In this document: piece after piece, positions 3,505-36,023 of the stretch | How the letters are laid out: every line of letters starts with the position of its first letter | Numbering within the stretch: the first letter of the stretch is position 1 | Assembly (NCBI RefSeq): GCF_014199335.1 | Contig: NZ_JACIJI010000001.1 | Span: 496,001-560,000, forward strand | DNA: 64,000 bases | Direction of reading: 5' to 3' | Origin: Stakelama sediminis | GTDB lineage: Bacteria > Pseudomonadota > Alphaproteobacteria > Sphingomonadales > Sphingomonadaceae | The notes under the pieces: generated by a model | The model's database searches: none | Seen by the model: only the letters and a program-made list of their open reading frames with translations | What the model was told of the DNA's origin: nothing | Position numbers and translations under genes: made by a program

Positions 3505-3635
3505 ATACTGCTCCCCGTATTTTCAGCACAGCCTATCGCGCCGCTGCGATCAGGCAAGTGAAAAGCCTGTGCAGAATCAATTGAGAAATCATGACTGCCG
3601 AAGGCAACGGTTGCACGCTGCCAGAAAGCCGCATC

Positions 3636-18563: not shown

Positions 18564-18633
18564 AGTTTTCCTCCCCCGTACCGATTGCATCCCACACCGC
18601 GACAACACAGATAGTCGAAATGTCGAACACCCC

Positions 18634-18690: not shown

Positions 18691-21270
18691 ATGAATCTCG
18701 AAAAATTTACTGATCGCGCCAAGGGTTTTCTTCAATCGGCGCAAACCGTTGCCATCCGCATGTCGCATCAGCGGATTTCACCCGAGCATCTGCTGAAAGC
18801 ACTGCTCGAAGACAATGAGGGCATGGCGTCCGGCCTGATTCAAAAGGCAGGCGGCGATCCCAAACGCGCGCAGTCCGATATCGATCTGGCACTGGCCAAA
18901 GTGCCGTCTGTGTCCGGCTCCGGCGCGCAGCAGACGCCGGGTCTCGACAATGATGCCGTGCGCGTGCTGGATCAGGCTGAGCAGGTCGCGCAAAAGGCGG
19001 GGGACAGCTATGTTACTGTCGAACGGCTGTTGCTGGCACTCGCGCTGTCGCAGAACACTGCCGCCGGTAAGGCGCTGAAGGATGCCGGCGTCACCGCCGA
19101 AGCGCTCAATACCGCGATCAACGATCTGCGCGGCGGCCGTACCGCCGACACCGCCAGCGCCGAGGATCGCTATGACGCACTCAAGAAATTCGCCCGCGAC
19201 CTGACCGAGGCAGCGCGCGACGGCAAGCTGGACCCCGTAATCGGGCGTGATGAGGAAATTCGTCGCACCGTCCAGATTCTCGCGCGGCGCACCAAGAACA
19301 ACCCCGTACTGATCGGCGAACCCGGCGTCGGCAAGACCGCGATTGCCGAGGGGCTGGCGCTGCGCATCGCCAATGGCGACGTGCCCGACAATCTGAAAGA
19401 CCGGCAGCTGATGGCGCTCGACATGGGCAGCCTGATCGCCGGTGCCAAATATCGCGGCGAGTTCGAGGAACGGCTGAAAGGCGTGCTCGACGAAGTGAAA
19501 GGTGCCGAGGGTCAGATCATCCTGTTCATCGACGAGATGCACACCCTGATCGGTGCGGGCAAAAGCGAGGGCGCGATGGATGCGGGCAATTTGCTCAAGC
19601 CCGCCCTAGCCCGCGGCGAACTCCATTGTATCGGCGCGACGACACTCGACGAATATCGCAAATATGTCGAAAAGGATGCGGCACTTCAGCGGCGGTTCCA
19701 GCCGGTGTTCGTCGGCGAACCGACGGTCGAGGACACCATCTCGATCCTGCGCGGGCTGAAGGAGAAATACGAACTGCACCATGGCGTGCGGATCACCGAC
19801 GGCGCAATCGTTTCTGCGGCAACGTTGTCCAACCGCTACATCACTGACCGCTTCCTGCCCGACAAGGCCATCGACCTGATGGACGAAGCCGCCTCGCGCA
19901 TCCGCATGGAAGTGGAATCCAAGCCGGAGGAGATCGAGGCGCTGGATCGCCGCATCATCCAGCTCAAGATCGAACGCGAAGCGCTGAGTCGAGAAACCGA
20001 CGACGCATCGCGCGATCGGCTGGAACGGCTTGAGGACGAACTTGCCGGACTGGAAGCGGAATCGGCTGCGCTCACCGAACGCTGGCAAGCGGAAAAGGTG
20101 AAGATTCAGTCCGAAGCAACGCTCAAGCAGCAGCTTGACGCCGCACGCATCGAACTGGAACAGGCGCAGCGCGCAGGCGATCTGGGGCGTGCCGGCGAGC
20201 TGTCCTATGGCACCATTCCCGAGCTCGAAAAGCAGCTCTCTGAGGCGCATGGCGCGACCGAAGGCGCAATGCTGCGTGAAGAGGTGACCGCCGACGACAT
20301 TGCGTCCGTGGTCAGCCGCTGGACCGGCGTGCCCGTCGACAGGATGCTGGAAGGCGAACGCGAAAAGCTGCTCCATATGGAGGATCAGCTGGGCAAGCGC
20401 GTCATCGGTCAGGCCGATGCGGTCAGGGCCGTCTCCACCGCGGTGCGCCGCGCAAGGGCCGGGTTGCAGGATCCGAACCGGCCGCTGGGCAGCTTCCTGT
20501 TCCTGGGCCCCACCGGCGTCGGCAAGACCGAACTGACCAAGGCGCTCGCCGAATTTCTGTTCGACGATTCAAACGCCATGGTCCGCATCGACATGAGCGA
20601 GTTCATGGAAAAGCACGCGGTCGCGCGGCTGATCGGCGCGCCTCCGGGCTATGTCGGCTATGAAGAAGGCGGCGTGCTGACCGAGGCCGTTCGCCGCCGC
20701 CCCTATCAGGTCGTGTTGTTCGACGAGGTCGAGAAAGCCCATGGCGACGTGTTCAACGTGCTGTTGCAGGTACTCGACGATGGTCGCCTGACCGACGGTC
20801 AGGGCCGCGTGGTCGATTTCTCCAACACGATCATCATCCTGACCTCCAATCTGGGCAGCCAGTTGCTGACCAATCTGGGCGACGGCGAGAGCGTGGAGTC
20901 GGTCGAGCCGCAGGTCATGGATATCGTACGTGCACATTTCCGACCGGAATTTCTCAACCGGCTGGATGAGGTCATCCTGTTCCACCGGCTGGGTGCGGAG
21001 CATATGGCACCGATCGTCGATATTCAGGTCAACCGCGTTGCAAAGCTGCTGGCCGATCGCAAGATCAGCCTCGACCTGACCGACGCGGCACGCGCCTGGC
21101 TGGGCCGGGTCGGCTACGATCCCGTCTACGGCGCCCGTCCGTTGAAACGCGCGGTGCAGAAATATCTGCAGGACCCGCTCGCCGACCTGATCCTGAAAGG
21201 CGAGGTCAAGGACGGCGCCACGGTTAAGATCGACGAAGGTGATGGGTCGTTGGCGCTGAGAGTAAATTAA
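18691..21270 (+). CDS. clpB: ATP-dependent disaggregase ClpB
   Basis: ClpB extracts and unfolds aggregated proteins with the DnaK system. The 859-residue protein has the N-terminal Clp domain (two repeats), NBD1 with Walker [14 protein letters not shown] (about residue 210) and Walker [10 protein letters not shown], a coiled-coil middle domain (about 400-530), NBD2 with [14 protein letters not shown] and [11 protein letters not shown], and the C-terminal domain. Length is standard. AGGGA lies before the ATG. A heat-shock-like promoter lies upstream and a bidirectional terminator downstream. Confidence 0.97.
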
Positions 21271-21316: not shown

Positions 21317-24300
21317 TCAGAACTTTGCGGTTGTATTCACAAAGAACGTACGACCAACATAATCATATCCCGAATAAAGCGGGGTATTTCCTACCATATT
21401 ATAGCCCCCAGCAGTAATGCGGGGCAGCTTTGCATTGAACAGGTTACGCACACCAGCAGTAATCTGGAATTTTTTAAGAGAAATTTGTACAGACGCATTG
21501 TGAAGAAAATAGTCAGGAACTTCAAAGTAGTAATTGTCCTTAAGGAACTGCTTATAATCCTGATCAATCGTACCATCTGGATTTAATGAAAAGTAATTAT
21601 AGGTCGCATTCTTGTCTCCAGTGATCCAATCTAGGCCATAGTGGAAGGTTACTTGATCAATGCGATAGCTCGCATTGAAACTCCCGACCCAATCCGGTGT
21701 CGTAATTGTTCCATTCGCATCCTCAAGCGGATCATCCGGAAACAATTTGCTCGACTGCTCCAGATAATGGATTACGTTTCCGTTCAGGATAAAGCGGCCG
21801 GGGCCGATGTCACGCGAGTAACGGATATTCGCTTCGACACCCCGTCGAATATCGGTCGACAGGTTGATGTAGTTATTATTGACCGTTAGAGCGTTGTTAT
21901 TGTCTCGATTAACCAATCGACAATAGCCTTGGCCTGGCTGAAAATTAGTATCGCCGTAGCACAAGTTCAGAATATTCGCTGCGCCAGCGCGGTTAACGCC
22001 GTTACTTACTTCAATTCTGAAATAATCAACCGACAGAGAGAAAGAACCCACGGACTGCGGCAATACCGGCTGCAATACAATCCCACCTGAGAAGTTGGTG
22101 GAGGTTTCCGCTTTCAGCCCTGATTCTCGACCACCTGCGCTAAGTACTGTAACACCACTAGTTTGTTGGAAATCGGCCGGAAGGCCGATCGCCGCGCAGT
22201 TTTTCTGGATAATCGGATTCTGTGAGTTCGCGTAATCGTCGCACGGGTCTGTTGAACTGGACAAGAAGCCGCTGGTCGCACCCAGGAATTGTTCGAACAG
22301 CGCAGGAGCACGATAGGACGTACCATAGCTGGCCCGGAAGCCGACTCCGCGAACCGGCTGCCACTCACCGGAAACCTTGTACGTCCAGCCCGATCCATAG
22401 GATTTGTAATCGGTGTACCGCCCCGAAGCATCCAGGTTGAGCCGATAGGCAAATGGCACATTTGCAGCCAACGGCAGATAGACTTCGCCAAACGCCTCCC
22501 ACACATTGTCGCTACCGCGTGTGATAGCTGCTGATGTCAGGTTATAAAGATTTCCATCTTGACTATCCTGAGGCGGAGTATCGTTGATACTGGCATCGCG
22601 GTACTCGAGACCAAGAGCAAGCTGCGCGTCACCGCCCGGCAAGTGGAAGATCGGACCATTGACGTTCAACGACGTCAGGAATTCACGATATTTCGTCGTA
22701 CCGACGACATTCTTCGTGATATAATTCCTGTACGCATCGGACAGATTACCACCAACCGACGCGGCATTGAGCGGCGGCGCAGCCACACAGTTCGGATCCG
22801 TCGTCGTAGCACAGACAAACCCGCCGTTGCCGTCGGAAACGACATCAAGAGACCGCGCGATACGATCTGTCAGGAACGTTTCAGTCTCGTACGTACCGTC
22901 ACTGAATGTCTTGCTGGCAAAATAATCATATTTCCAGCCAGAGAAGAAGAAATTGCCGCGAAGCCCGCCACCGAGGCGAGCAAAGCTGACTTCTTGTTTC
23001 GAGTTGAGGTTACCATATCCGATGAATGAACGCGCGGCGACAATATTGCCGTTCGAAATCTCATTTGGATTGTAGAGCGCTCCGTTGCGATATTCAGCAG
23101 GAAGTAACGGACTACCCTGCGCATAATCGAGAGTAAGCTGACGATAGCCCAAATTGGATGAATGCCGCTGGTTACCGAGAAGCTCGACGTAAACCTCGGC
23201 ATCCCCCAAAATATCAAGCTGATAGCCGGCCTGAAGATAGCCGGTGTAGATTTCCGCAGGGGTTACGAGTTGCTCCTTCTCCTGACGCGGATCGAAGCTG
23301 TCACGGGTATAGTAATCGACGCCCAGCAAACCCGGCGTGGGACCACCGGTAACGGACGGGGCCGGAACAAACCGGTTATAGTTACCCAAAGCACCCGTGA
23401 GCCGATCATAGGCCTGACGCGTAGGAAGGGCGACCGTATTGATGGTTACGCCGCCGTTGTCGAGCGTAAAGCACTTTGGCTTACCCGTGGCAGGGTCGAT
23501 ATAATCACCCGAGCCAAAAGCAGTCCCTTCACCAGAGAGGTATCCACCAATCGGGCATTTGGTAAAGTTTTCATCTTCTCTGGCAAGACTCTGCCGCTTG
23601 TAATATTCAAGCGAACCGATCAATTTCAACCGCTCGCCGGAATAACCAAAGGATGCCGACAGACGATAAGAGGTACCTGCTCCAACTTCAGGAACGTTGA
23701 CCTGCCCATCGAGCACCAGTCCGTTCAGCTCAGTGTCGGTAATAATGTTCACAACACCTGCGATAGCGTCGGAACCATAAATGGACGAAGCGCCCGCCTT
23801 CAGGATTTCAATACGCTTGATCAATGCAGTCGGCAGAACGTTCAGATCGGCCGCACCGACCGAACCGCGCGTGCCAGCAGGTGCCAAGCGATGGCCATTC
23901 AACAGAATAAGGGTGCGGTTTGGACCAAGGCCACGCAAACCAAGCGTATTCGCACCCGTGCCGCCGTTCGTGACATAGCCGCCAAAATAGTTGTTGATTT
24001 GACTGGCACCTTGGGTGACCGCAGTGCTTTGCAAAGCTGAAGCAGCGGAGTCGAATCCGGACTGTGTAATTTCATCCGCCGTAATGACAGTCAGCGGCTC
24101 CATCGTTGAAAACGCATCGCGACGAATAAGCGAACCCGTCACAACAATATCGCCGTTATCGGTTTCCGGTGCGACGACGTTGTCGCCTGCCTTGCCCTGC
24201 TTTTGCTGCGCCTGCTGCGTCTTAACCGCCGTTTGATCGGACGCATTCTGATCGTTTGTTTGCGCTGCAGCCGGACTAGCAATCGAAATTGCGCTCCCCA

Positions 24301-24376
24301 TGCAAATTAGTGCCAACGCCTGCAAGGCGGTACTTCCACGAAGCTTCGTTCGCGTCAGGCTATCGTTCGATTTCAT
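21317..24376 (-). CDS. TonB-dependent receptor (AT-rich gene)
   Basis: The 1019-residue outer-membrane receptor has a signal peptide ending near PAAAQ. A Gln/Ala-rich linker leads to a TonB-box-like segment GDIVVTG (residues about 74-80). The plug domain contains LRGLGPNRTLILLNGHRL and ASSIYGSDAIAGVVNII, and a 22-strand-type barrel ends with Phe (NTTAKF). Substrate is unknown. Its plug is clearly related to that of the receptor at 28168-31401. The gene is AT-rich: the 60 bases at 21481-21540 hold only 20 G/C, against 34 of 60 in a clpB line (19441-19500). It lies downstream of the oxygenase/sulfotransferase pair on the same strand after a 233-bp gap. GAGGGAAA precedes the ATG. Confidence 0.93.
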   Translation of the reverse strand: MKSNDSLTRTKLRGSTALQALALICMGSAISIASPAAAQTNDQNASDQTAVKTQQAQQKQGKAGDNVVAPETDNGDIVVTGSLIRRDAFSTMEPLTVITADEITQSGFDSAASALQSTAVTQGASQINNYFGGYVTNGGTGANTLGLRGLGPNRTLILLNGHRLAPAGTRGSVGAADLNVLPTALIKRIEILKAGASSIYGSDAIAGVVNIITDTELNGLVLDGQVNVPEVGAGTSYRLSASFGYSGERLKLIGSLEYYKRQSLAREDENFTKCPIGGYLSGEGTAFGSGDYIDPATGKPKCFTLDNGGVTINTVALPTRQAYDRLTGALGNYNRFVPAPSVTGGPTPGLLGVDYYTRDSFDPRQEKEQLVTPAEIYTGYLQAGYQLDILGDAEVYVELLGNQRHSSNLGYRQLTLDYAQGSPLLPAEYRNGALYNPNEISNGNIVAARSFIGYGNLNSKQEVSFARLGGGLRGNFFFSGWKYDYFASKTFSDGTYETETFLTDRIARSLDVVSDGNGGFVCATTTDPNCVAAPPLNAASVGGNLSDAYRNYITKNVVGTTKYREFLTSLNVNGPIFHLPGGDAQLALGLEYRDASINDTPPQDSQDGNLYNLTSAAITRGSDNVWEAFGEVYLPLAANVPFAYRLNLDASGRYTDYKSYGSGWTYKVSGEWQPVRGVGFRASYGTSYRAPALFEQFLGATSGFLSSSTDPCDDYANSQNPIIQKNCAAIGLPADFQQTSGVTVLSAGGRESGLKAETSTNFSGGIVLQPVLPQSVGSFSLSVDYFRIEVSNGVNRAGAANILNLCYGDTNFQPGQGYCRLVNRDNNNALTVNNNYINLSTDIRRGVEANIRYSRDIGPGRFILNGNVIHYLEQSSKLFPDDPLEDANGTITTPDWVGSFNASYRIDQVTFHYGLDWITGDKNATYNYFSLNPDGTIDQDYKQFLKDNYYFEVPDYFLHNASVQISLKKFQITAGVRNLFNAKLPRITAGGYNMVGNTPLYSGYDYVGRTFFVNTTAKF

Positions 24377-24609
24377 GTACTATTTCCCTCGTTTATCCAC
24401 AGCTGCAATCCTTTCAGACTGCTTCTGCGAGACCCCCGCTGGCTTTGACGCAACGTGCCACACGCGCCGGTTGCCAACATGTATTCAGAATGAACGAGGG
24501 TTCAGGAAACTGTAAAGGGGTCGCTCGACACCACCTTCCCTTTTAGGGGATGTGTAACAGAAATATCACACCGCCATGACGCGAAGATTACCTGCGCTGA
24601 CCATCTTAC

Positions 24610-26499
24610 CTAAAGGTCATATTCCATGCTTTTTGCCCATGGTTTCAGCGTCGGCAATACCGGCTCCAGATGATGGCGATACCGTTCCCATCGCCCGGAG
24701 GCGCGGGTATATAATGGCTCGGTCACCTGCGAATAGCTGGCCGTCTTGATCTGCCCGCGCCGGGCCGCACTGGCCTGATTATCGAGCACCGCCGGATCCC
24801 AATCGATGTCCAGAAATTTCAGCAACGGCCGCATCTCACCTTCCAGATCGGAAACCATCCGCTCATAGCGGATGCGGTGCACGTTCAGCGGCAAATTTCG
24901 CTCAGCCAGCGTCCAACAGCTTTGCGCCGCATCGTAAAGGCGCGCCGCATCTTCGAGTGTCGTAAAATTGGCCATTGCGCGGTTGAGCTGAAAATTCGCC
25001 ATGAAGCAGCTTAGCACGACGTCACAGGGATGACGCTCGACGAACACCACCTTCGCATCGGGAAAGATGCGATGAATCAGGGGCATCTTTACCATGTGCA
25101 GAGGAAATTTATCGATAACCGTCTGGCCCGGTTCCGGCGATGCGATAATGCGCAGCGCGTCGAAATAGGCATTGCGCAACTTCACTATATCGCCCTGCGT
25201 CAGTGTTGCGATGCGGTCGATATCGCCCAGCATCGTTTCCACCGGGCGCAACACCATTTGCTCTTCCAGTACATGCACGTCGGGAAGATTCATCAGCAGA
25301 GTATCAAGCAGCGTCGTTCCCGAACGTGGAAAGCCGACAATGAAGATCGGGGAGGCTGGCTCTTTCGGTACGCTCACCGTCGTCCAGCCAGCAAGTTTTT
25401 TGGGTTCAAGCTGTGCTGTATAGGCCCGCACCTCTTCCAGATATCCGGCGGCCTGGAACGGCGCCTGCGGCCTGGCTTCGACTGCGGCGCGATTCATGTC
25501 GCTATAGGCGGCGAATGCCTTATCGGTGTCGCCCAGTCGCTCAGCGATCCCGGCAATCAAATGCGACCGCCGCACAGGGTTGATTGTATCCGCAGCATTT
25601 TCCGCTAACGGCAGGGCATCGACAGCTCGCCCCTGCCGAAACAAGGCCCATGCTTTGAGGAAACGCACTTCCGCTTCCGGCAGGCCATTCTCCTCTGCCA
25701 GATCGGCAAGGCGATACAGTGCGTCCAACCGGTTGAGATTTTCGAATAACATGCCGAGTTCGAGATATGCGGGCAAATAATGCTTGTTCGCAGCAATCGC
25801 ATCGGCAAAGGCGCTTTCCGCCTGCTCCAGTCGCTGCACGCTGGCCGCAGCACGCGCAAACTCCGTCAGCACTTCCGCGTCGAGCGGTGCCATATCCCGG
25901 GTTCGGCGCAGCAGTTGAAAGCGCTCTTCAAACCGTTCGGCATCGTTGAGCAGATAAGCGAGATTCTTTTGCAGCGGGACTTCTCCCGGGGCCAGTCGCA
26001 TCGCTTTATAGAGGCAGTCGATCGCCCCGTTTCGATCACCGAGCGCCGAGCGAATATTGGCCAGGTTGTTCCAGCTTTGAAAATCGTTCTGAGCCTGTGC
26101 CAGCACATATTCATAGGATTTTGCCGCATCGGTCAGCTTGCCGAGATGCTGCTGCACATAGGCCGCCAGACGACGCAGCGAAATATCCTCGGAAACAGCC
26201 GTCGCTTCCTTTTCTGCATTCTCCCACTGCCCTGTTTCTATCAGCGCCGTGACCAGATTACGGCGAACGGAAAGGTCTTCGGGCAACGCCGCACTGGCCG
26301 GACGCAGATATTCGACACCGCGGGAGGGATCACCGAGCTGGCAAGATACCAACCCGGCGAAAGACAATAAGGGCGCGAAATCGTCCCCCGATGAGATAGC
26401 CTCTTCGGCAATCTTCAGGGCACCGTTCAAATCTCTGGCTTGATATTTTTCAAGTGCTCGAAGCAGCGACGCATTGGTTTCTTGGGTGGGAGCAGTCAT
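24610..26499 (-). CDS. TPR-containing sulfotransferase
   Basis: The 629-residue protein joins an N-terminal TPR superhelix (roughly residues 10-370) to a C-terminal PAPS-dependent sulfotransferase domain. The 5'-phosphosulfate loop is FPRSGTTLLDTLL (390-402), LEEQ at 411-414 places a Glu where tyrosylprotein sulfotransferases have their base, and the 3'-phosphate motif is VERHPCDVVLS (487-497). ASYSQVTEPLY and GRWERY near the end also resemble the tyrosylprotein-type branch (Sulfotransfer_3). A peptide or glycan acceptor is likely but unknown. No signal peptide is present, so it acts in the cytoplasm. Its ATG overlaps the stop codon of the oxygenase gene (ATGA). Confidence 0.9.
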   Translation of the reverse strand: MTAPTQETNASLLRALEKYQARDLNGALKIAEEAISSGDDFAPLLSFAGLVSCQLGDPSRGVEYLRPASAALPEDLSVRRNLVTALIETGQWENAEKEATAVSEDISLRRLAAYVQQHLGKLTDAAKSYEYVLAQAQNDFQSWNNLANIRSALGDRNGAIDCLYKAMRLAPGEVPLQKNLAYLLNDAERFEERFQLLRRTRDMAPLDAEVLTEFARAAASVQRLEQAESAFADAIAANKHYLPAYLELGMLFENLNRLDALYRLADLAEENGLPEAEVRFLKAWALFRQGRAVDALPLAENAADTINPVRRSHLIAGIAERLGDTDKAFAAYSDMNRAAVEARPQAPFQAAGYLEEVRAYTAQLEPKKLAGWTTVSVPKEPASPIFIVGFPRSGTTLLDTLLMNLPDVHVLEEQMVLRPVETMLGDIDRIATLTQGDIVKLRNAYFDALRIIASPEPGQTVIDKFPLHMVKMPLIHRIFPDAKVVFVERHPCDVVLSCFMANFQLNRAMANFTTLEDAARLYDAAQSCWTLAERNLPLNVHRIRYERMVSDLEGEMRPLLKFLDIDWDPAVLDNQASAARRGQIKTASYSQVTEPLYTRASGRWERYRHHLEPVLPTLKPWAKSMEYDL

Positions 26500-28019
26500 G
26501 CCGCTGGATGCGCAACGTCGAACGCAACTGTCAACCTCTCACCAGTGTCGAAAGGTCGGGTTCCATGCCACATGGTCGACGGAAACAGCGCGAGATGTCC
26601 CGGTTTTGGCTGGATAGTGCGATATGCCGGCAGTGCGATTCCGAGCTCCTTCTGCGGTTCACCAAGAACAAGTGCGCCATCCTTTGTGTCGCCATCGGCC
26701 TGCGATGCGAGCACCTCTTCCGGAAGCGAGACATAGAGTGCTGAACTGATCCAGCCGGCGGGATGCACATGATTGGCGTGATGCCCCTTCCCTGCCAGCC
26801 GCACTGACCATGACCCGGCGAACCGCACCGGTCGATCCCGCCGAACGTCCAGCAGCGGGTGGCCATCTTCCTGCGAAGGCAAAGCATCGATATAGCGCTG
26901 CACCGCCTTGACGATTGCTTCGCGCAATGTACGAATTTGCGGTTCGATCCGCGCGAACAGCGCACCATCGGTCTGTGTACCGCCCCGAACCGATTGATCG
27001 AGATGCTGCGCGCGTGCCTGGTGCAGACCGCGCAGATGATCGGTAAACACCTCCAGCGGCGGAAGAAATTCTCTCAGATCATAATATTGCACCAGCGCTT
27101 CCGGGCGATCGAGCCAATCCGCTCTGGCGTCGTCGGACAGCCGCCATGCGATCGAAGCGTAAGGCCACATGATCGCTGCCCCTGTCCCGCCCAGCGCCTT
27201 GTCAATGACCGGAAGCGCGCGCTCAATTTGTGCGGTTCGCAGATAATGCCGGACCTTGCGCACATCGAAAGCCGGGTCTTCCAATGACGAGAGCATGTCA
27301 AATAGTTGATCCGCCCGTTCCTTATGACCGGTCTCAGACGCAATAACCGCGTCGGTTGCGTCGAGAAACTGTACGTCGCCAATCCGCTTTCGTGCCCGCC
27401 CCGATATGACAGCGGCATCTTCATACGCTTCCGCCTGTTGCAGCGTCAGCAACCACAGGTGCCAGAGATCAGCACTATCGTTCCCATCTGCTACCGCCTG
27501 TTCGAACGACTGCATGTGGTCGTCCTGCTGCCCGGCCATCCAACGCAATCTCGCCAGTTGCGCATGTCCATCCAGCCAGCCGGGGTTAAAGCGTACCGCG
27601 TCTGCCACCAGCGCTATGGCGCGTTCCACATCCCCTTCCGCAAAGCTTGCGGCTGCGAGCCCCAGCACAACGCTTCCGTCCTGCGGTGTCAGTCGCCGGG
27701 CCTCTTCAAAAGCATCAACGGCAGGCAACCCGGCTTCCAACAGGGTTCGCGCGTGTCCATGCGCTATTTTACCATCTGTCGGGGAGAGTTTCCTGGCCTC
27801 CACAAATGCGCGCAGGGCCGATTCCCTCTGGTCCAGCGCGCGATGCAGCAGCGCCAGCCATTGGTGCAGCGCGGCGATGTTCGGAAAGCGGCGAATGCCC
27901 TCTTTCAGTACCGGAATTGCCTGTTCTTCGGTCTGTTCACGCAGCGCCCGCGACGCCAGGGCTGCAAAGTCGCCCGGTGCCATGACGCTCGCACTAAAGC
28001 CCGGCCTGTGGCTTGCCAT
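26496..28019 (-). CDS. TPR-containing putative 2OG-Fe(II) oxygenase
   Basis: The 507-residue protein has TPR-like helical repeats up to about residue 290. The C-terminal double-stranded beta-helix domain is of the 2OG-FeII_Oxy_5 type. Candidate iron ligands are His417/His419 (HANHVHPAGW) and His485 (FPSTMWHGTRPF), with Arg495 (GERLTVAFDV) for 2-oxoglutarate. The usual carboxylate ligand is not obvious, so the site is tentative. Such enzymes hydroxylate peptides or small molecules. No signal peptide is seen. It is the first gene of a coupled pair with the sulfotransferase, 90 bp downstream of the terminator that ends the upstream receptor gene. AGGAAGG precedes the ATG. A weak promoter (TTGGGT, 17 bp, TAAAGT) may lie in that gap. 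Confidence 0.85.
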   Translation of the reverse strand: MASHRPGFSASVMAPGDFAALASRALREQTEEQAIPVLKEGIRRFPNIAALHQWLALLHRALDQRESALRAFVEARKLSPTDGKIAHGHARTLLEAGLPAVDAFEEARRLTPQDGSVVLGLAAASFAEGDVERAIALVADAVRFNPGWLDGHAQLARLRWMAGQQDDHMQSFEQAVADGNDSADLWHLWLLTLQQAEAYEDAAVISGRARKRIGDVQFLDATDAVIASETGHKERADQLFDMLSSLEDPAFDVRKVRHYLRTAQIERALPVIDKALGGTGAAIMWPYASIAWRLSDDARADWLDRPEALVQYYDLREFLPPLEVFTDHLRGLHQARAQHLDQSVRGGTQTDGALFARIEPQIRTLREAIVKAVQRYIDALPSQEDGHPLLDVRRDRPVRFAGSWSVRLAGKGHHANHVHPAGWISSALYVSLPEEVLASQADGDTKDGALVLGEPQKELGIALPAYRTIQPKPGHLALFPSTMWHGTRPFDTGERLTVAFDVAHPAA

Positions 28020-28115
28020 TCACCTTCCTCGCGCAACTGTGCCGGAAACTTTATCAAAGCCGTTGCCAAAACCCAATTGGCCTTAGGCAAGCCGTTCTAC
28101 GAATTGCATAAAAAA

Positions 28116-28143
28116 AGGGTCGGCAGAATGCTCTGCCGACCCT
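28116..28143 (-). terminator. Strong terminator after the upstream TonB-dependent receptor
   Basis: On the minus strand AGGGTCGGCAG and CTGCCGACCCT form a perfect 11-bp stem with a 6-base loop, followed by a run of seven T. It ends transcription of the receptor gene, so the oxygenase pair probably has its own promoter. Confidence 0.92.
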
Positions 28144-28167
28144 CCGAAATCCACACTGTCTTCTGAA

Positions 28168-31100
28168 TTAGAAGTCCAGCGTAATGCCGGTGAAGATGTA
28201 ACGACCCAGCGAATCGTACACCACCGGATAGGTGTTGCCGTTACAATAGACCGACGCACAGCTCGACAAACTGCCCGAGCTGGAAACGATCGGCGGCTGG
28301 CGATCCAGCAGATTCTGCACACCAAGACGGAAGCGATAATGATCCGCGATGCTCGCTGTCATCGTCAGGTCGAAATAGCTCTGTGCCGGAAGATGCGCAG
28401 CAAACTGAGAGTAGTTACCCGCCAGCGACGGATTGCTGCTGCTCTTGTCCACGTCGACACCGCTAAAGTAGCGCCATGCACCCGACAAGCCAATGCCGCT
28501 CGGAAGTGTGAAGCCGACCCGCAGCTTGTGCCGCCATTTCGGCATCGGCGTGCCGCACTGAACGCCATAGTAACCCGCGCAGTCATATGGCGTAGAAACG
28601 CCATTGTCGGTGACAAACTTGTCGAGATAGGTGCCGTTGAAATTCATGTTGATCTGCGCAAAGCCCAGATCACGCGAATAGCTGGCACCGACATCAACAC
28701 CACTGGTCTTCACGCTACCGATGTTCTGCGTCAGATCGACCACATAGCCATTTGAGGAGCGCCACAGCGATCCGGTAGCATCACGATGCACATAATCGCA
28801 CAGAGGCGAGTTTGCATCTGCAGTACAGCTCTGAACGATCGTATCAGCCCCGATACCCTGAATGGTGTTCTTCACCTTGATGTTGTAATAATCAACAGTC
28901 AGAGCGAGACCACGCAGGCCTGACACCAAATCACCCGGCTGCAGCACGAGGCCCGCCGTGTAGGTATCTGCGATTTCCGGTTCCAGGTTGATGTTACCAC
29001 CGATTAGGCCATTATACTGCGCCGCCGGGTTACCGACAACCGTCTGACCCACGGTCAAGCCCTGAGCAAGGCATCCGGTATCCGCAGCCGTAATCGGAAC
29101 CGGGTTACCCTGTTTGTCAACCTTCGCACAGGGATCAGTGCTGCCGTCCAGAGCAACACGCTGCGGTGCGAAGAACTCCTGAATGTTCGGCGAGCGAACC
29201 GCACGATTATATGCACCGCGGAAGCGGATCGCACGGATCGGCGCGAAGTCCGCACCCAGCTTATAGGTGTCAGTGCTGTAGTTGCGGCTTGCAACTTCAT
29301 AGCGTGAATGACGGTAACCGCCATCGAATGACAGGTCATAGAAGAAGCTGTCCTGCACGATCGGAACGCGCAGTTCAGCATAGGCTTCATATACGTTGAA
29401 CGCACCGCTGACCGGCAACGTCGCCGCACCCTGACCGGCAAGGTCGCCCGTCTGGTATTCAAGGTCCGATTTGAAGTCGAGGGCTTCACGACGATACTCC
29501 GTACCGACGTTGATACCCACACCGTCTTCGGCCCAGGGCGACTTGACACCGTATTTGCCGAGCAGGCCGGTCACGTTGACCGACGCCACCTGTTCCGACA
29601 CGATACCACGCTGGAAACCGGGCGCTGTAATGTAGTTCAGCGCGGCCTGCGACACTCCACCAGCGGTGAAGATATTGTACGGAACACAGTTCGGATCTGA
29701 ACCATCCAGAGCCGAACGACAAACCGCCTGACCGGTGTTCGGATCGGTGACCACGTCAAGCGACTTGCGCATACGACTGATCGACAGATCGTTCACATAG
29801 GTTTCGGAAAAGTTGGTCCGACCATACTGATAGTATGCATCATAGGTGAATGCGTCATTGATATCACCCTTGGCACCGACAACCAGACGATACGCCGTAT
29901 GCTGCAGGTCGTCCTGACGCGCCGCACCTTCGACATTGCGCTTGTAGATTTGTGCGAAGCCACGCTCATAGGTGTTCCCGCTGGCATCAGTGAACTGATA
30001 CGGCGTCAGCGCATAGCCTGCCTGAGCAGCCGACGTAACCGTCGTCGGCGGAGCATTCATCGGCGGGGGCACCAGATTGCCGGTAACCGGGTCGATCGAG
30101 GACGTTACAAGATTGCCCGGCGAACAGATAATGCTCTTCTGCTGTGCGCTGAGAAGCGGATTATCGCAGTTGATCGAATAGACGTTACCGAACGTGCCCG
30201 ACGGCGCGATCTGGGCGACCGAACGATCGTCCATGAACATGCCCGACATATAGGGCTTGAAATGATCGCTGACATCGTAATGCGCGAAGAAGCCGGCCGT
30301 GTAGCGTTCGTCCGGACGCTGATAATAGTTATACGGCGCATAGTTATACGGCGTATAGCCCGGAATAATGGTCTGGTTCGGGCCGATCTGATAGGACAGC
30401 GATGTACCATCACCGTAAGGCAGAGCCTGGCCGCTATCCGGATCAACGTAACCCGGAGTGCCGTCCCCGTAAGAGACGATGGAACCGTTTGCCGAGTTGA
30501 ACGAACCCGCACAGCTGAGAGAGCCCGATGCAGAAGCCCCCAATGCACAGGCGCTGTAATCGCGCGCGGCCTGCGTAACTGCGTTGATCCGACGATATCC
30601 GGCGTATGCTACGACGTGGCCACGATTATCGTCAAACCCAGCACCAATTACTGCGGTGGTATCAACGGTACCCCCATCCGCGACATCACCGCTGGGGTAA
30701 CCGAAGTTGCGCGCGTCCAGAGCATCGCGAATGGCACTGCTTGCACTGTTGCTATGCTGATAGAAACTATACTGGCCATCAATCTTGAAGCCGGTAAAAT
30801 CCTTATCCATGATGAAGTTGACAACGCCGCCGACAGCGTCCGCACCATAGGTGGACGACGCACCGCCGGTCAGCACGTCAACGCGCTTCACGAGCGCAGC
30901 AGGAATGAAGTTAAGGTCAGCTGCGGAATCCGTCGGGTCACCCGGGACAAGTCGGCGACCGTCGATCAGGACCAGAGTACGGTTGGCACCAAGGTTACGC
31001 AGGTTGACGGTTGCAGTACCGGTCGCACCGTTGGCGATGCCGCCGCCCTGGTCCGCAAACACCTGCGGCAGCGAATTCAGCAAATCCTCGGTACGAGTCG

Positions 31101-31401
31101 TGCCGGTGAGCTTGAACTCCTGACTGTTAACCACGGTTACCGGGCTGACCGACGTCAGGTTCGGCTGAGGAATGCGCGAACCGGTAACGATCAGGTCCTG
31201 TCCCTGCGTTGCAGCGCCTTGAGCAGTAGCAGCCGGAGTGGCGGTCGTGCTGTCCTGCGATGAGACGGCGGTCGAATCCTGGTCGGAAGTCGTACTGCCG
31301 GTCGTAGTTTGCGCGTACGCAGGCGCAGCCACGACAGCAAGGCTGAGAACGAACGGCGCAGCGCCCGACTTCAGCGCGGATATGAGCTGATGCTTGGTCA
31401 A
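28168..31401 (-). CDS. TonB-dependent receptor
   Basis: This 1077-residue outer-membrane receptor has a signal peptide (FVLSLAVVAAPAYAQ), a Ser/Thr/Gln/Ala-rich linker, a TonB-box-like DLIVTGSRI near residue 70 and a plug with LRNLGANRTLVLIDGRRL and ASSTYGADAVGGVVNFIM. The barrel ends with Phe (GITLDF). Several Cys pairs (YSACALG/LSCAG and INCDNP/IICSPG) suggest disulfide-pinned extracellular loops. The plug is paralogous to the receptor at 21317. The start codon is TTG at 31401, preceded by AAGGG; no in-frame ATG gives a better signal peptide. Its ligand is unknown. Confidence 0.92.
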   Translation of the reverse strand: MTKHQLISALKSGAAPFVLSLAVVAAPAYAQTTTGSTTSDQDSTAVSSQDSTTATPAATAQGAATQGQDLIVTGSRIPQPNLTSVSPVTVVNSQEFKLTGTTRTEDLLNSLPQVFADQGGGIANGATGTATVNLRNLGANRTLVLIDGRRLVPGDPTDSAADLNFIPAALVKRVDVLTGGASSTYGADAVGGVVNFIMDKDFTGFKIDGQYSFYQHSNSASSAIRDALDARNFGYPSGDVADGGTVDTTAVIGAGFDDNRGHVVAYAGYRRINAVTQAARDYSACALGASASGSLSCAGSFNSANGSIVSYGDGTPGYVDPDSGQALPYGDGTSLSYQIGPNQTIIPGYTPYNYAPYNYYQRPDERYTAGFFAHYDVSDHFKPYMSGMFMDDRSVAQIAPSGTFGNVYSINCDNPLLSAQQKSIICSPGNLVTSSIDPVTGNLVPPPMNAPPTTVTSAAQAGYALTPYQFTDASGNTYERGFAQIYKRNVEGAARQDDLQHTAYRLVVGAKGDINDAFTYDAYYQYGRTNFSETYVNDLSISRMRKSLDVVTDPNTGQAVCRSALDGSDPNCVPYNIFTAGGVSQAALNYITAPGFQRGIVSEQVASVNVTGLLGKYGVKSPWAEDGVGINVGTEYRREALDFKSDLEYQTGDLAGQGAATLPVSGAFNVYEAYAELRVPIVQDSFFYDLSFDGGYRHSRYEVASRNYSTDTYKLGADFAPIRAIRFRGAYNRAVRSPNIQEFFAPQRVALDGSTDPCAKVDKQGNPVPITAADTGCLAQGLTVGQTVVGNPAAQYNGLIGGNINLEPEIADTYTAGLVLQPGDLVSGLRGLALTVDYYNIKVKNTIQGIGADTIVQSCTADANSPLCDYVHRDATGSLWRSSNGYVVDLTQNIGSVKTSGVDVGASYSRDLGFAQINMNFNGTYLDKFVTDNGVSTPYDCAGYYGVQCGTPMPKWRHKLRVGFTLPSGIGLSGAWRYFSGVDVDKSSSNPSLAGNYSQFAAHLPAQSYFDLTMTASIADHYRFRLGVQNLLDRQPPIVSSSGSLSSCASVYCNGNTYPVVYDSLGRYIFTGITLDF

Positions 31402-32201: not shown

Positions 32202-33143
32202 TTATTGCGGCATCGGCCCCGCCAGCAGCAGCGGGTCGATGCGCGCCGCATCCCATTTCAGGCCCCAGTGCAGATGCGGGCCGGTGGCACGGCCTGTATC
32301 ACCGCTATAGGCGATGACCTGCCCCTGCTTCACATGATCGCCGACATGCACCAGAATTTTCGACAGGTGCAGGAACGCACTGTTCAGCCCCATACCGTGA
32401 TCGACCATCAGCAGATTGCCCTCCAGCGTGAAGGGCTTGGCCGTGGCCAGAATCACCACACCATCGGCGGGCGCGCGCACCGGGGTCCCGACCGGCACCG
32501 CGATGTCGATACCGGAATGATAGGAGCCCTTCTGTCCGCCCTTATAGATACGCTGCGCACCGAACAGCGTAGAGATGCGCCCGGTGGTGGGCCAGATGAA
32601 CTTCTGCCGCCAGCCATGTGCATCGGTGGTCATGGCACGCGCGGCATGGATCTGCGCCAGTTCGGGTGGGCGCAGCCGTTTGAACTCGGCGGAAGGCACA
32701 GGATATTTCGGCAGGCGGTTGAGGCGCGAAATCTTCCACGCACGCGGTGCGACGCTAATATCGCGCGTCAGCTGCGCACCGTTCGCCAGTGTCGCGACCA
32801 GCGTTGCCTGCGGCCCGGCATTGCGGTCGAACGCGATCAGGAATTCGCCGTCGGAAGCGACGGGAATCGTCTTTCCGTCGAACGTCAGTGTCGTCGTGCC
32901 TGTCGGTACCGTGCCCAGCACCGCACCGCCCTGTTCGAAATGACCGTTCAGGGTAAATGTCTCTGAAACCGGAGCCTGTACCGGCGTGGCGGGCGCCACC
33001 GGTGGCGACGCAACCCGGTCACCCGGCACCTGCGCCTGAGTGCCCGCAGGCGCCGCCGCCTCAGCCCCGTTGGGAACAACTGCACATCCGGCGAGCAGGA
33101 CCAGTGCCGCCGCGCCGACGATTTCCTTGCCGATGATCCGCAT
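32202..33143 (-). CDS. M23 family metallopeptidase lipoprotein (LytM domain)
   Basis: The 313-residue protein starts at an ATG that shares a base with the DUF2093 stop codon. A lipobox LLAGC places the lipidated Cys at residue 20. A middle beta domain precedes the C-terminal LytM/M23 domain. That domain carries the zinc motif HSGIDIA and a second motif HLHWG (GRATGPHLHWGLKW), both intact, so an active peptidoglycan endopeptidase is expected. It probably acts at the outer membrane on cell-wall cross-links. The frame is open further upstream but the extra residues are Cys-rich and unlike a signal. Confidence 0.9.
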   Translation of the reverse strand: MRIIGKEIVGAAALVLLAGCAVVPNGAEAAAPAGTQAQVPGDRVASPPVAPATPVQAPVSETFTLNGHFEQGGAVLGTVPTGTTTLTFDGKTIPVASDGEFLIAFDRNAGPQATLVATLANGAQLTRDISVAPRAWKISRLNRLPKYPVPSAEFKRLRPPELAQIHAARAMTTDAHGWRQKFIWPTTGRISTLFGAQRIYKGGQKGSYHSGIDIAVPVGTPVRAPADGVVILATAKPFTLEGNLLMVDHGMGLNSAFLHLSKILVHVGDHVKQGQVIAYSGDTGRATGPHLHWGLKWDAARIDPLLLAGPMPQ

Positions 33144-33343
33144 TACTGGTCGAGCAGCGCTTTGGTGGCAATCTCCGCAGTCGCATAGGCCTGTTGCGAG
33201 CGCACATCCCAATAGCGCAAATCATCCAGCGGAATGGCCTCCCCCGATATCGCGCACAGCACATGATCGCCCGGCGACAGCACCCGGAATCCGTTGGCGA
33301 GATAATGAAGCCGCGCGGTGCGCGAACGGTTGGACATCAGCAT
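33143..33343 (-). CDS. DUF2093 domain protein
   Basis: This 66-residue protein matches the small alphaproteobacterial DUF2093 family: LHYLANGFRVLSPGDHVLCAISGEAIPLDDLRYWDV is its core. Function is unknown; the fold is a small zinc-ribbon-like or beta domain at best. It lies between xseA and the M23 gene as in other alphaproteobacteria. GGGAG precedes the ATG and its stop codon overlaps the next start (TAATG). Confidence 0.88.
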   Translation of the reverse strand: MLMSNRSRTARLHYLANGFRVLSPGDHVLCAISGEAIPLDDLRYWDVRSQQAYATAEIATKALLDQ

Positions 33344-33376: not shown

Positions 33377-34759
33377 TCAAAGCAGTTTCGGCTGCTCCGG
33401 CTTGTCCGGGATATAGGCTTTGGTGCCGCTGCGCTCAACCCGCACATCGACCTCGCCATCGTTGAAATGCAGTGTCAGAGCACCCGCCGAACGCGCCGCT
33501 TGCGCATTGGCCGTCACCTGCCCGGTGGTACGCGCCGATACCCAGGCATAGCCGCGTTCCAGCGGCTTGTTGGGATGGACTGAGTCCAGCAACCGCCCCG
33601 CCCCGTCCAGCCGCTGTCGCGCCGCCTTCAATCGCTGTTCCAACATTGCCGGACGCAACGCTCCGGTGCTGCGGTCAAGCTGGCGGCGCGCCAATGCCAC
33701 GCGCCGTTCCAGTGCCAGTCCCAGCCGATGGCCCAGATCATCGGCCTTTTGCCGCTGCGGCCCCAGCAGAGCATCCCGCCTGGGCAATACACGCACCAGT
33801 GCCGAAAGCCGCTCCTGTCCACGCTCGTGATACCGCCGCGCGCAGCGTTCCGCGCGCAGGCCGAAAGTGGCGATGCCGTTACGCAATTCGGCCACCACCG
33901 GCACCGCCAGTTCGGCGGCAGCGGTCGGCGTCGGCGCACGCAGATCAGCGGCATGGTCCGACAGGCTGGTATCGGTTTCATGCCCGACCGCCGAGATGAC
34001 GGGAATCGAGCAATCGGCAATGGCGCGCACCACCACTTCCTCATTGAACGCCCATAAATCCTCGATCGACCCGCCACCGCGCGCGACGATCAGCAGGTCG
34101 GGGCGCGGCACCGCCCCTCCTTGGCCCGGTAGTGCATCAAAACCGCGTACCGCGCGCGCCACCTCTTCGGCGGAACCCTCGCCCTGTACCTTGACCGGCC
34201 ACAATACGACATGGCTGGGACAGCGATCCTCCAGCCGATGGAGAATGTCCCGGATCACCGCGCCGGTGGGCGAGGTTACAACACCGATCATCCTGGGCAG
34301 GAACGGCAGCGGCTTCTTACGCTCGCTATCAAACAGCCCCTCCGCCCCCAGCTTTGCCTTCAGCTTCTCGAACAGCGCCATCAGCGCGCCTTCGCCCGCC
34401 AGTTCCATCCGTTCGATAACGATCTGATATTTGGACCGGCCCGGATAGGTGGTCAGCTTCCCCGTGGCGATCACCTCGATCCCGTCCTGCGGTGCAAAGG
34501 GCACCGCCGATGCCGTGCCGCGCCACATCACCGCGTCGATCACCGCCTTGTCGTCCTTCAGCGCCATATAGACATGGCCCGATGCCGCGCGTTTGAACCC
34601 GGAAATTTCGCCGCGCAGCTTCACATGACCGAACTCCCCCTCGACCATGCGTTTCAACCGGTTGGACAAATCGCTGACACTGACGGCTGCGGCGTTGTCG
34701 CCGGGCTGGCTCTCGGCTACCAGTCGCTGCGAACCGGAATCAAAGGGGGAATCGGGCAT
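33377..34759 (-). CDS. xseA: Exodeoxyribonuclease VII large subunit
   Basis: XseA with XseB degrades single-stranded DNA to oligonucleotides. The 460-residue protein has an N-terminal OB-fold ([24 protein letters not shown]), the conserved catalytic region ([54 protein letters not shown]) and a long helical C-terminus. The start at 34759 is chosen by family alignment (MPDSPFDSG...) and an AGGA five to six bases upstream. It overlaps the purD start codon head to head. xseB is not in the window. Confidence 0.95.
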
Positions 34760-36023
34760 GAACGTCCTGCTGATCGGATCGGGAGGGCGCGAACATGCGC
34801 TGGCGTGGAAGCTGGCGCAATCGCCCCGTCTGACTAAACTATATGCGGCACCGGGCAATCCCGGCATCGCCGATTATGCCGAATGTACCGACATCTCTGC
34901 AACCGACCAGCGCGGAATTATCGATTTCTGCCTGCGCAACTCGATCGAATTTGTCGTAATCGGGCCGGAAGCACCGCTGGTCGAAGGGCTGGCGGACAAT
35001 CTGCGTACCATGAACATTGCGGTGTTCGGACCGGGCCGCGAGGCAGCGCAGCTGGAAGGGTCAAAGGGCTTTACCAAGGATCTCTGCTCGGCAGCGGAAA
35101 TCCCCACCGCAGGCTATGTCCGCGTCGAATCGATTGAGGGCGCGCGTGCAGCACTCAACGATTTCGGTCTGCCGGTCGTCATCAAGGCGGACGGGCTGGC
35201 TGCGGGCAAGGGCGTCACCATCGCCTATACGCCCGAAGAGGCCGAAGCCGCGGTCGCCGACCTGTTCGACCGTTCGGGCGGCGAGGCGGTGATCGAGGAG
35301 TTCCTGACCGGCGAAGAGGCCAGCCTGTTCGTCCTAACCGACGGCGAAGCGGTCATGGCCATCGGTTCGGCGCAGGATCACAAGCGCGTCGGCAACGGCG
35401 ATACCGGCCCCAATACCGGCGGCATGGGCGCCTATAGCCCCGCGAGCGTACTGACGCCGAAGCTGGAACGCGAGGCGATGGACCGGATCATCCGCCCGAC
35501 GGTGAAGGCGCTGGCCGATGCCGGAACGCCCTATTCGGGCGTACTCTATGCCGGGCTGATGCTGACGGATCTGGGTCCGAAGCTGATCGAATATAATGTC
35601 CGCTTCGGTGATCCCGAATGCCAGGTGCTGATGCTGCGGCTGGAAGACGACCTGCTCGACCTGATGCTGGCGACTGCCAGCGGCACGCTGGCCGATTTGC
35701 CCGCCCCGACATTCCGCGACGAAACCGCGCTTACCGTGGTCATGGCGGCAAAGGGCTATCCCGGCACGCCGGAAAAGGGCGGTACGATCGACGGTATCGA
35801 CGCGGCCGAAGCCACCGGCGCGAAAGTGTTTCAGGCGGGTACCCGCGAAGAAGGCGGCACACTAATCGCCAATGGCGGCCGGGTCCTCAACGTCACCGCG
35901 ACCGGCGCGACTGTGGCCGAAGCGCAACGCAACGCCTATGCGGCAGTTGAGGCGGTCGATTTCCCCACCGGCTTCTATCGCACCGACATCGGCTGGCGCG
36001 AAGTGGAACGCGAAGCAGGCTGA
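34758..36023 (+). CDS. purD: Phosphoribosylamine-glycine ligase (GAR synthetase)
   Basis: PurD joins glycine to phosphoribosylamine in the second step of purine synthesis. The 421-residue protein begins [19 protein letters not shown], the usual N-terminus, and shows ATP-grasp motifs ([63 protein letters not shown]). The start at 34758 has a strong AAGGGGGA site and lies inside the xseA start region on the opposite strand. Confidence 0.97.

Follow-up and report, generated by a model that had tools for sequence, protein, structure and literature searches.

Tyrosylprotein sulfotransferases (TPSTs) are located in the Golgi and are not known to carry tetratricopeptide repeats (TPRs). The nearest bacterial precedent that we know of is RaxST of the Xanthomonas raxX-raxSTAB system, a TPST-like sulfotransferase by which RaxX is modified. 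Human AspH joins TPRs to an aspartyl/asparaginyl hydroxylase, and Iyer et al. reportedly described in 2010 gene clusters with 2-oxoglutarate (2OG) enzymes, in part accompanied by halogenases, that were proposed to modify peptides. One study models RaxST on TPST2 and places homologs of raxST in a variety of settings that lack raxX (PMC6637879). Here we analyze a locus within a 64,000-nucleotide stretch of the Stakelama sediminis genome (the window), where a TonB-dependent receptor (TBDR_B) is encoded next to a TPR-containing 2OG-Fe(II) oxygenase (OXY) and a TPR-containing sulfotransferase (ST). Together, the three form a real, conserved receptor-linked enzyme module that is wider than the original prediction, made from the sequence of the window, had seen. 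No report of such a receptor/TPR-ST/TPR-OXY arrangement was found in searches of openly licensed papers; the words 'sulfotransferase', 'oxygenase' and 'tetratricopeptide' do not occur in the main text of PMC7142613, which covers sphingomonad TonB transporters, and 'TonB' is absent from the available parts of the halogenase papers PMC5945002 and PMC8269204.

Inspection of the minus strand reveals the order M23 peptidase, TBDR_B, OXY, ST and a second receptor, TBDR_A, beyond which clpB runs convergently (Table 1). The list of open reading frames (ORFs) and their translations bear out the four minus-strand ORFs of the original prediction, coordinates included, and the ATGA coupling it had proposed for the enzyme pair corresponds to a four-base overlap of OXY and ST. 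The architecture claimed for both enzymes, TPRs followed by a C-terminal modifying domain, is likewise found by Pfam (PF13469 in ST, PF13759 in OXY), and the tyrosylprotein-type character ascribed to the ST domain agrees with TPST being its best match by sequence and structure. As had also been noted, no RaxX-like peptide gene is apparent: the clpB-xseA stretch is filled by listed genes, and no raxX-, raxA- or raxB-like gene was seen there in the window gene list and Pfam matches, where ORFs of at least 90 aa are listed and a shorter one could escape. Nor did the same two sources contain an exporter, inner-membrane importer, nonribosomal peptide synthetase, biosynthetic or peptide gene between clpB and xseA.

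ST combines its TPRs with a PF13469 match (E 1.9e-36), and its structural model (mean pLDDT 91.6) contains a TPR superhelix whose helices reach approximately residue 362. TPST1 (5wrj_A) is the best structural match (Z 21.8, 242 aligned residues, 2.8 Å, 21% identity), and the closest solved relatives by sequence are also TPST1/2 (E 5e-12); the best sulfotransferase match outside the TPSTs is 4gbm, a natural-product domain (Z 19.1, 231 aligned, 3.7 Å). Sequence comparison and the predicted model thereby support the placement of the ST domain closest to tyrosylprotein sulfotransferases. In an alignment of 20 sequences, P391, R392, S393, G394 and T396 of the 5' motif for 3'-phosphoadenosine-5'-phosphosulfate (PAPS) are invariant, as are E413, R489 and S497, and in the DKxP motif Lys is the majority residue without being invariant. 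From the residue roles of TPST, we take R489 and S497 to be the 3' PAPS Arg and Ser, and E413 to occupy the catalytic Glu position. Fold and PAPS-binding motif are common to ST and TPST1/2, with E412-E413 of ST aligning to the GEE motif of TPST; two substrate arginines of TPST are not both kept. In contrast to the Golgi enzymes, ST is fused to TPRs, and no signal peptide was seen by eye in the translations of either ST or OXY. ST also differs from RaxST, by description rather than by sequence comparison, in having an N-terminal TPR superhelix and in its neighbours, which are a TonB-type receptor and a 2OG oxygenase. Its TPR part resembles the TPRs of MamA and O-GlcNAc transferase, a common repeat arrangement, and is weakly similar to that of OXY (27% over 111 aa). 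A single match to an adenylylsulfate kinase gene in the same genome could supply PAPS; that genome further holds one PF13759, two PF13469 and 32 Plug matches.

The PF13759 match of OXY scores 73.6 bits against a cut-off of 27 (E 1.8e-20). Residues H417, H419, H485 and R495 are invariant among 24 aligned sequences and would represent the His ligands and the Arg of a 2OG oxygenase. The layout of OXY is like that of human AspH, of which a TPR-PF05118 version is found at sister loci, but PF13759 is a different 2OG family. Compared with the peptide-modifying dioxygenase clusters, the arrangement here has a TPR-ST and a TPR-OXY next to a TonB receptor, keeps to one place in the chromosome and has enzyme sets that vary by receptor clade.

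To what extent these genes travel together was read from three genome samples; the searches capped the number of candidates scored in each genome, such that misses are possible. In the family sample, OXY adjoins ST in 11 of 14 ST orthologs (E ≤ 1e-100, own included), and an AspH-like gene lies between the two in G067. The genus sample (101 genomes) contains ST at E ≤ 1e-85 in 17 others, ten of them with OXY within 2 kb; in G477 and G478, OXY faces the other way and is interrupted by a single stop codon. In the class sample (289 genomes, own included), an ST relative is present in 16 others at E ≤ 1e-45 and OXY is rarer, with ten others at E ≤ 1e-20, one being the same-genus G091. Only G122 among these carriers has relatives of both, which lie on opposite strands of a single contig at a distance of approximately 5 kb. 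Across 80 titled ST loci, a TonB-dependent receptor lies 5' of ST in 50 of the 55 evaluable sphingomonad or unassigned loci, counted where no labelled gene other than OXY or an AspH-like gene intervenes before ST. Three sphingomonad and four other loci with too little 5' sequence were left out of this count, the 58 loci treated as sphingomonad include four metagenome-assembled genomes (MAGs) named only Alphaproteobacteria or Pseudomonadota, and at least six named loci seem to be in the family sample already, which limits the independence of the two sets. OXY is present in 31 of the 50 receptor-bearing ST loci, an AspH-like gene in 22 and a VASI-like gene in 27.

Freely varying neighbours, which the original prediction had named as grounds for dropping the functional link, are thus not what these counts describe for TBDR_B and ST/OXY. 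The proposed link between enzymes and receptors stands in part: the two TPR enzymes go together and go with TBDR_B, but the role envisaged for both receptors does not extend to TBDR_A. Both are of the TonB-dependent type, with Pfam Plug and TonB barrel matches, and are about 30% identical across plug and barrel. The nearest TBDR_B homologs have ST and/or OXY or other modifiers on their 3' side. Relatives of TBDR_A (at least 48% identity) were found at five loci, only two of which (G073, G039) have OXY and ST, and TBDR_A groups with the G039 receptor in the receptor tree without a tie to the OXY/ST pair.

A wider pattern emerges at loci anchored on clpB, which is matched in 113 of 119 family genomes. 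The census comprises 102 clpB loci with at least 7 kb on the clpB 3' side, analyzed by six-frame search. Fifteen of the 119 genomes fall outside it, namely five of the six without a ClpB match, nine in which clpB is truncated or close to the end of its contig, and G043, whose fetched region missed clpB; a further two of the 104 anchored loci were dropped for having less than 7 kb. Genes were scored with self-built hidden Markov models (HMMs; TBDR, OAR, OXYd, STd, ST2, ASPHd, P4H, MT, HAL and VASI) at chosen cut-offs of 25 to 100 bits, a receptor being either of the TonB type or Oar-like, and Pfam was run on representatives only. Receptor and modifier occur together at 55 loci, a receptor only at 24, a modifier only at 3 and neither at 20 (Fisher p 1.6e-6, which takes no account of phylogeny). 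The modifiers are ST, OXY, a TPR-PF05118 AspH-like hydroxylase, a PF13661 oxygenase, a methyltransferase and a second sulfotransferase-like family, ST2. Six-frame search found a modifier at 58 of 102 loci, versus 54 of 98 by gene caller, which missed AspH-like genes. A 153-aa gene called between ST and OXY in L074 was rejected as a gene-caller artefact; by eye and HMM, the stretch encodes an AspH-like TPR enzyme.

Modifiers lie preferentially on the 3' side of the receptors. Among 87 receptors with at least 3 kb on both sides, a modifier is found within 2.5 kb 3' in 60 and 5' in 16 (7 both), and on the receptor's own strand in 30 and 13, respectively. Some loci of this set were picked for their enzymes, a choice that does not account for the 3' bias; the clpB-anchored loci alone give 45 on the 3' side and 12 on the 5' side of 66 receptors, and demanding room on the 3' side only gives 63 and 16 of 101. 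Oxygenases and transferases also co-occur (39/10/9/44 in the 102 loci; p 2e-10, without correction for phylogeny), where part of the coupling is due to one clade with OXY, the PF13661 oxygenase and the methyltransferase.

Receptor clades carry different enzyme sets. A FastTree phylogeny of 66 receptors places TBDR_B in a supported group whose 13 members include 12 with ST. A second supported group of 15 has OXY, the PF13661 oxygenase and the methyltransferase in 13, and a third group of nine has ST2 in seven, five of these with an AspH-like gene as well. The number of state changes on the tree is 8 for STd, 2 for ST2 and 3 for the PF13661 oxygenase, versus 18.9, 7.7 and 14.5 in shuffles, and for each of six enzyme families none of 300 shuffles was as low as the observed value. 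This match between clade and enzyme set owes something to common descent of the entire locus.

ST2 has no Pfam match (two sequences tested), and a sequence search of the PDB returned no convincing match, the only one being at E 0.69. Its model (pLDDT 83.8) matches TPST1 with Z 15.6 over 212 residues, with other sulfotransferases just below; a Foldseek match to a sulfotransferase has E 1.7e-5, and profile comparison with ST gives a probability of 61% (E 8e-5). On the basis of this model, ST2 matches a sulfotransferase fold, as an unannotated family whose best match is the tyrosylprotein sulfotransferases. The family is represented by L161:3744-4784 and 11 further aligned homologs, and in the gene-caller census 12 of 15 ST2 genes have a TonB receptor no more than 1 kb away.

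Table 1 Features of the clpB-xseA interval and its flanks (positions in the window)
Feature	Position	Strand	Assignment	Basis
clpB	18691..21270	+	Conserved left flank of locus	NCBIfam TIGR03346, over cut-off
TBDR_A (P0001)	21317..24376	-	Second TonB receptor	Pfam Plug and TonB barrel
ST (P0002)	24610..26499	-	TPR superhelix and PAPS sulfotransferase domain	Pfam, model
OXY (P0003)	26496..28019	-	N-terminal TPR and C-terminal 2OG-Fe(II) oxygenase (PF13759)	Pfam
Terminator	28114..28145	-	Intrinsic terminator between TBDR_B and OXY	14-pair stem and T run
TBDR_B (P0004)	28168..31401	-	TonB-dependent receptor, linked receptor	Pfam Plug and barrel; listed start TTG
P0010	31641..32168	+	Small putative secreted protein, VASI-like label; divergent from TBDR_B	Sub-threshold PF11319
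M23 peptidase	32202..33212	-	Right flank	PF01551
xseA	33377..34867	-	Right flank	TIGR00237, over cut-off

Two features of the locus, P0010 and the terminator between TBDR_B and OXY, were absent from the original prediction. The terminator is the strongest of five terminator-like sites (4.1 in shuffles), with a fold z of -5.34. The receptor and enzymes therefore do not constitute a plain operon, and their transcription would be separate or attenuated. Such a terminator follows 26 of the 27 receptors whose next same-strand gene is OXY, ST or AspH-like, one of the 27 being read from an over-long frame through Ns, and it also follows 87 of 98 other receptors. On the far side of TBDR_B, the only Pfam match of P0010 is a sub-threshold piece of VasI (PF11319), and the protein appears secreted by eye. 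P0010 was considered as an acidic-tyrosine substrate (DEVYIVD) and rejected, as the tyrosine is unconserved in an alignment of 39 sequences. GC content at third codon positions is 0.54-0.65 for the TBDR_B, OXY, ST and TBDR_A genes versus 0.76 for clpB and 0.74 for xseA. Recent acquisition in the Stakelama sediminis genome was rejected as an explanation, since values lie below the flanks for modifiers in 31 of 33 loci and for receptors in 29 of 33 and are thus typical of the locus. On the 5' side of clpB, window positions 16428-18608 encode a penicillin-amidase family protein (PF01804), whose match to PvdQ is far below cut-off.

In the reading that we favour, to which we give slightly less than an even chance, the locus pairs a TonB-dependent receptor with dedicated cytosolic enzymes, where OXY hydroxylates and ST sulfates an envelope-bound protein, most likely the TBDR_B precursor. 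We favour an envelope-bound protein as the target because no other partner is as constant as the receptor, neither enzyme has a visible signal peptide, and genes for export, import or biosynthesis were not seen in the interval. TPST-like enzymes, AspH-like PF05118 enzymes with TPRs and PF13661 enzymes are, moreover, types that we take to act on proteins. OXY would hydroxylate the protein as it passes the cytosol unfolded en route to the envelope, and ST would sulfate the same protein in the cytosol. The TBDR_B precursor, as the likeliest substrate, may be gripped by the TPR superhelices before Sec export, and the mature receptor, displaying the modified residue, would then bind a particular ligand or evade a phage or bacteriocin. 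The linkage, the enzyme sets that differ among receptor clades, the folds and the conserved motif residues are observations; the protein nature of the substrate, its identity with the receptor and the sequence in which the two reactions occur are what we infer.

Several observations weigh against the proposal. OXY is missing beside ST in 3 of 14 family and 7 of 17 genus orthologs, and a receptor was detected 5' of ST in none of 18 evaluable loci outside sphingomonads, where a receptor HMM trained on sphingomonads may miss receptors. Of the receptor-bearing clpB loci, 24 of 79 have no modifier; for half of the receptors with a 3' modifier, any such modifier is convergent, being encoded on the opposite strand, and at the locus itself the terminator separates receptor from enzymes. 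The pairing of oxygenase and transferase does not reach significance when phylogenetically independent pairs are used (10 pairs, median p 0.375). Acidic tyrosines number 1.64 per 1000 aa in receptors within 3.5 kb of ST or ST2, versus 2.50 in receptors without a modifier (Mann-Whitney p 0.038) and 2.43 in those with other modifiers only (p 0.017), and the candidate enrichment in ST-linked receptors was rejected, as these have fewer acidic tyrosines rather than more. Inspection of the receptor alignment by eye revealed no modified residue, conserved site or column specific to the OXY and ST clade.

Rather than the receptor, the enzymes might modify another protein or peptide in trans, much as RaxST modifies RaxX; the target, either P0010 or a peptide encoded elsewhere, would be exported and then recognised or re-imported by the receptor. 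We regard this as rather unlikely, though the TPST-like fold of ST suits a peptide substrate and P0010-like genes recur beside these receptors. They also go with modifiers: 74 TBDR-bearing clpB loci include 36 with both, 5 with a VASI-like gene only, 15 with a modifier only and 18 with neither (p 1.2e-4), as scored with an HMM trained mainly on loci with modifiers. Against a trans substrate, VASI-like genes accompany only the 27 of 50 receptor-bearing ST loci given above, the acidic tyrosine of P0010 is unconserved, and neither an exporter nor a peptide gene is seen in the locus. Were the substrate instead a small molecule or a surface glycan, the receptor would import or sense the product, a reading that we judge unlikely. 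Enzymes acting on small molecules are known among PF13469 proteins and 2OG oxygenases, natural-product domains such as 4gbm come next after TPST among the sulfotransferases that ST matches in structure, and a Trp-halogenase-like enzyme lies beside some receptors with OXY. However, the TPR fusions of ST, OXY and the AspH-like enzyme, the position of TPST as the closest solved relative of ST by sequence and structure, and the lack of biosynthetic or transport genes from clpB to xseA in the window all speak against such a substrate.

The clpB-xseA interval might also be a mere hot spot of insertion and exchange at which receptors and enzymes meet by chance, an explanation already weakened and, in our view, very improbable. 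It draws on comparison within the genus: the window receptors are 27% and 33% identical to their nearest counterparts at the G091 locus, but XseA is 73% and ClpB 86% identical, and therefore contents differ while the place is kept. Chance meeting fits poorly with ST loci away from clpB (G013, G031 and G066), which keep a receptor 5' on the same strand, or with receptor clade predicting enzyme set, even though common descent contributes to the latter.

Should the receptor or a partner protein be the substrate, the locus would provide a novel means of altering the import proteins of the outer membrane, and this would bear on which nutrients are taken up and on recognition by phages or bacteriocins. 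It would also parallel, in bacteria, the sulfation and hydroxylation that proteins undergo in the secretory pathway of eukaryotes. A broader proposal, which we hold with considerable doubt, is that sphingomonads have a receptor-editing system, where each TonB-receptor lineage at clpB loci has its own set of cytosolic enzymes that would place a hydroxyl on the unfolded receptor, to be capped in turn with sulfate or methyl before export. If true, outer-membrane proteins would bear modifications hitherto known from secretion in eukaryotes. The combination of receptor clade and enzyme set provides a genomic handle on large enzyme families with unassigned substrates, and also points to the unannotated sulfotransferase-fold family ST2.

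Related enzymes were observed in further contexts. Seven of nine Oar-like receptors adjoin a more distant sulfotransferase (L106, at 1795-4959, L126, L130, L138, L146, L153 and L170), the same-genus G091 being among the seven loci; the three tested (L106, L126 and L138) have TPR matches, and the L138 frame contains two sulfotransferase domains. Four and three sulfotransferase-domain matches occur in a row in L284 and L260 (Phycisphaerae and Gammaproteobacteria MAGs, respectively), with no TonB receptor detected. A Trp-halogenase-like gene lies near a TonB receptor in L100 (7351-8871; Pfam on this locus only), L089, L090, L093 and L139, and four of these five loci have an OXY relative, those four having been fetched for OXY. 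OXY relatives also lie beside a protein of 930-938 aa with an M14 zinc carboxypeptidase domain (L201:6388-9204 and L203:6382-9174), and L202 is alike by eye.

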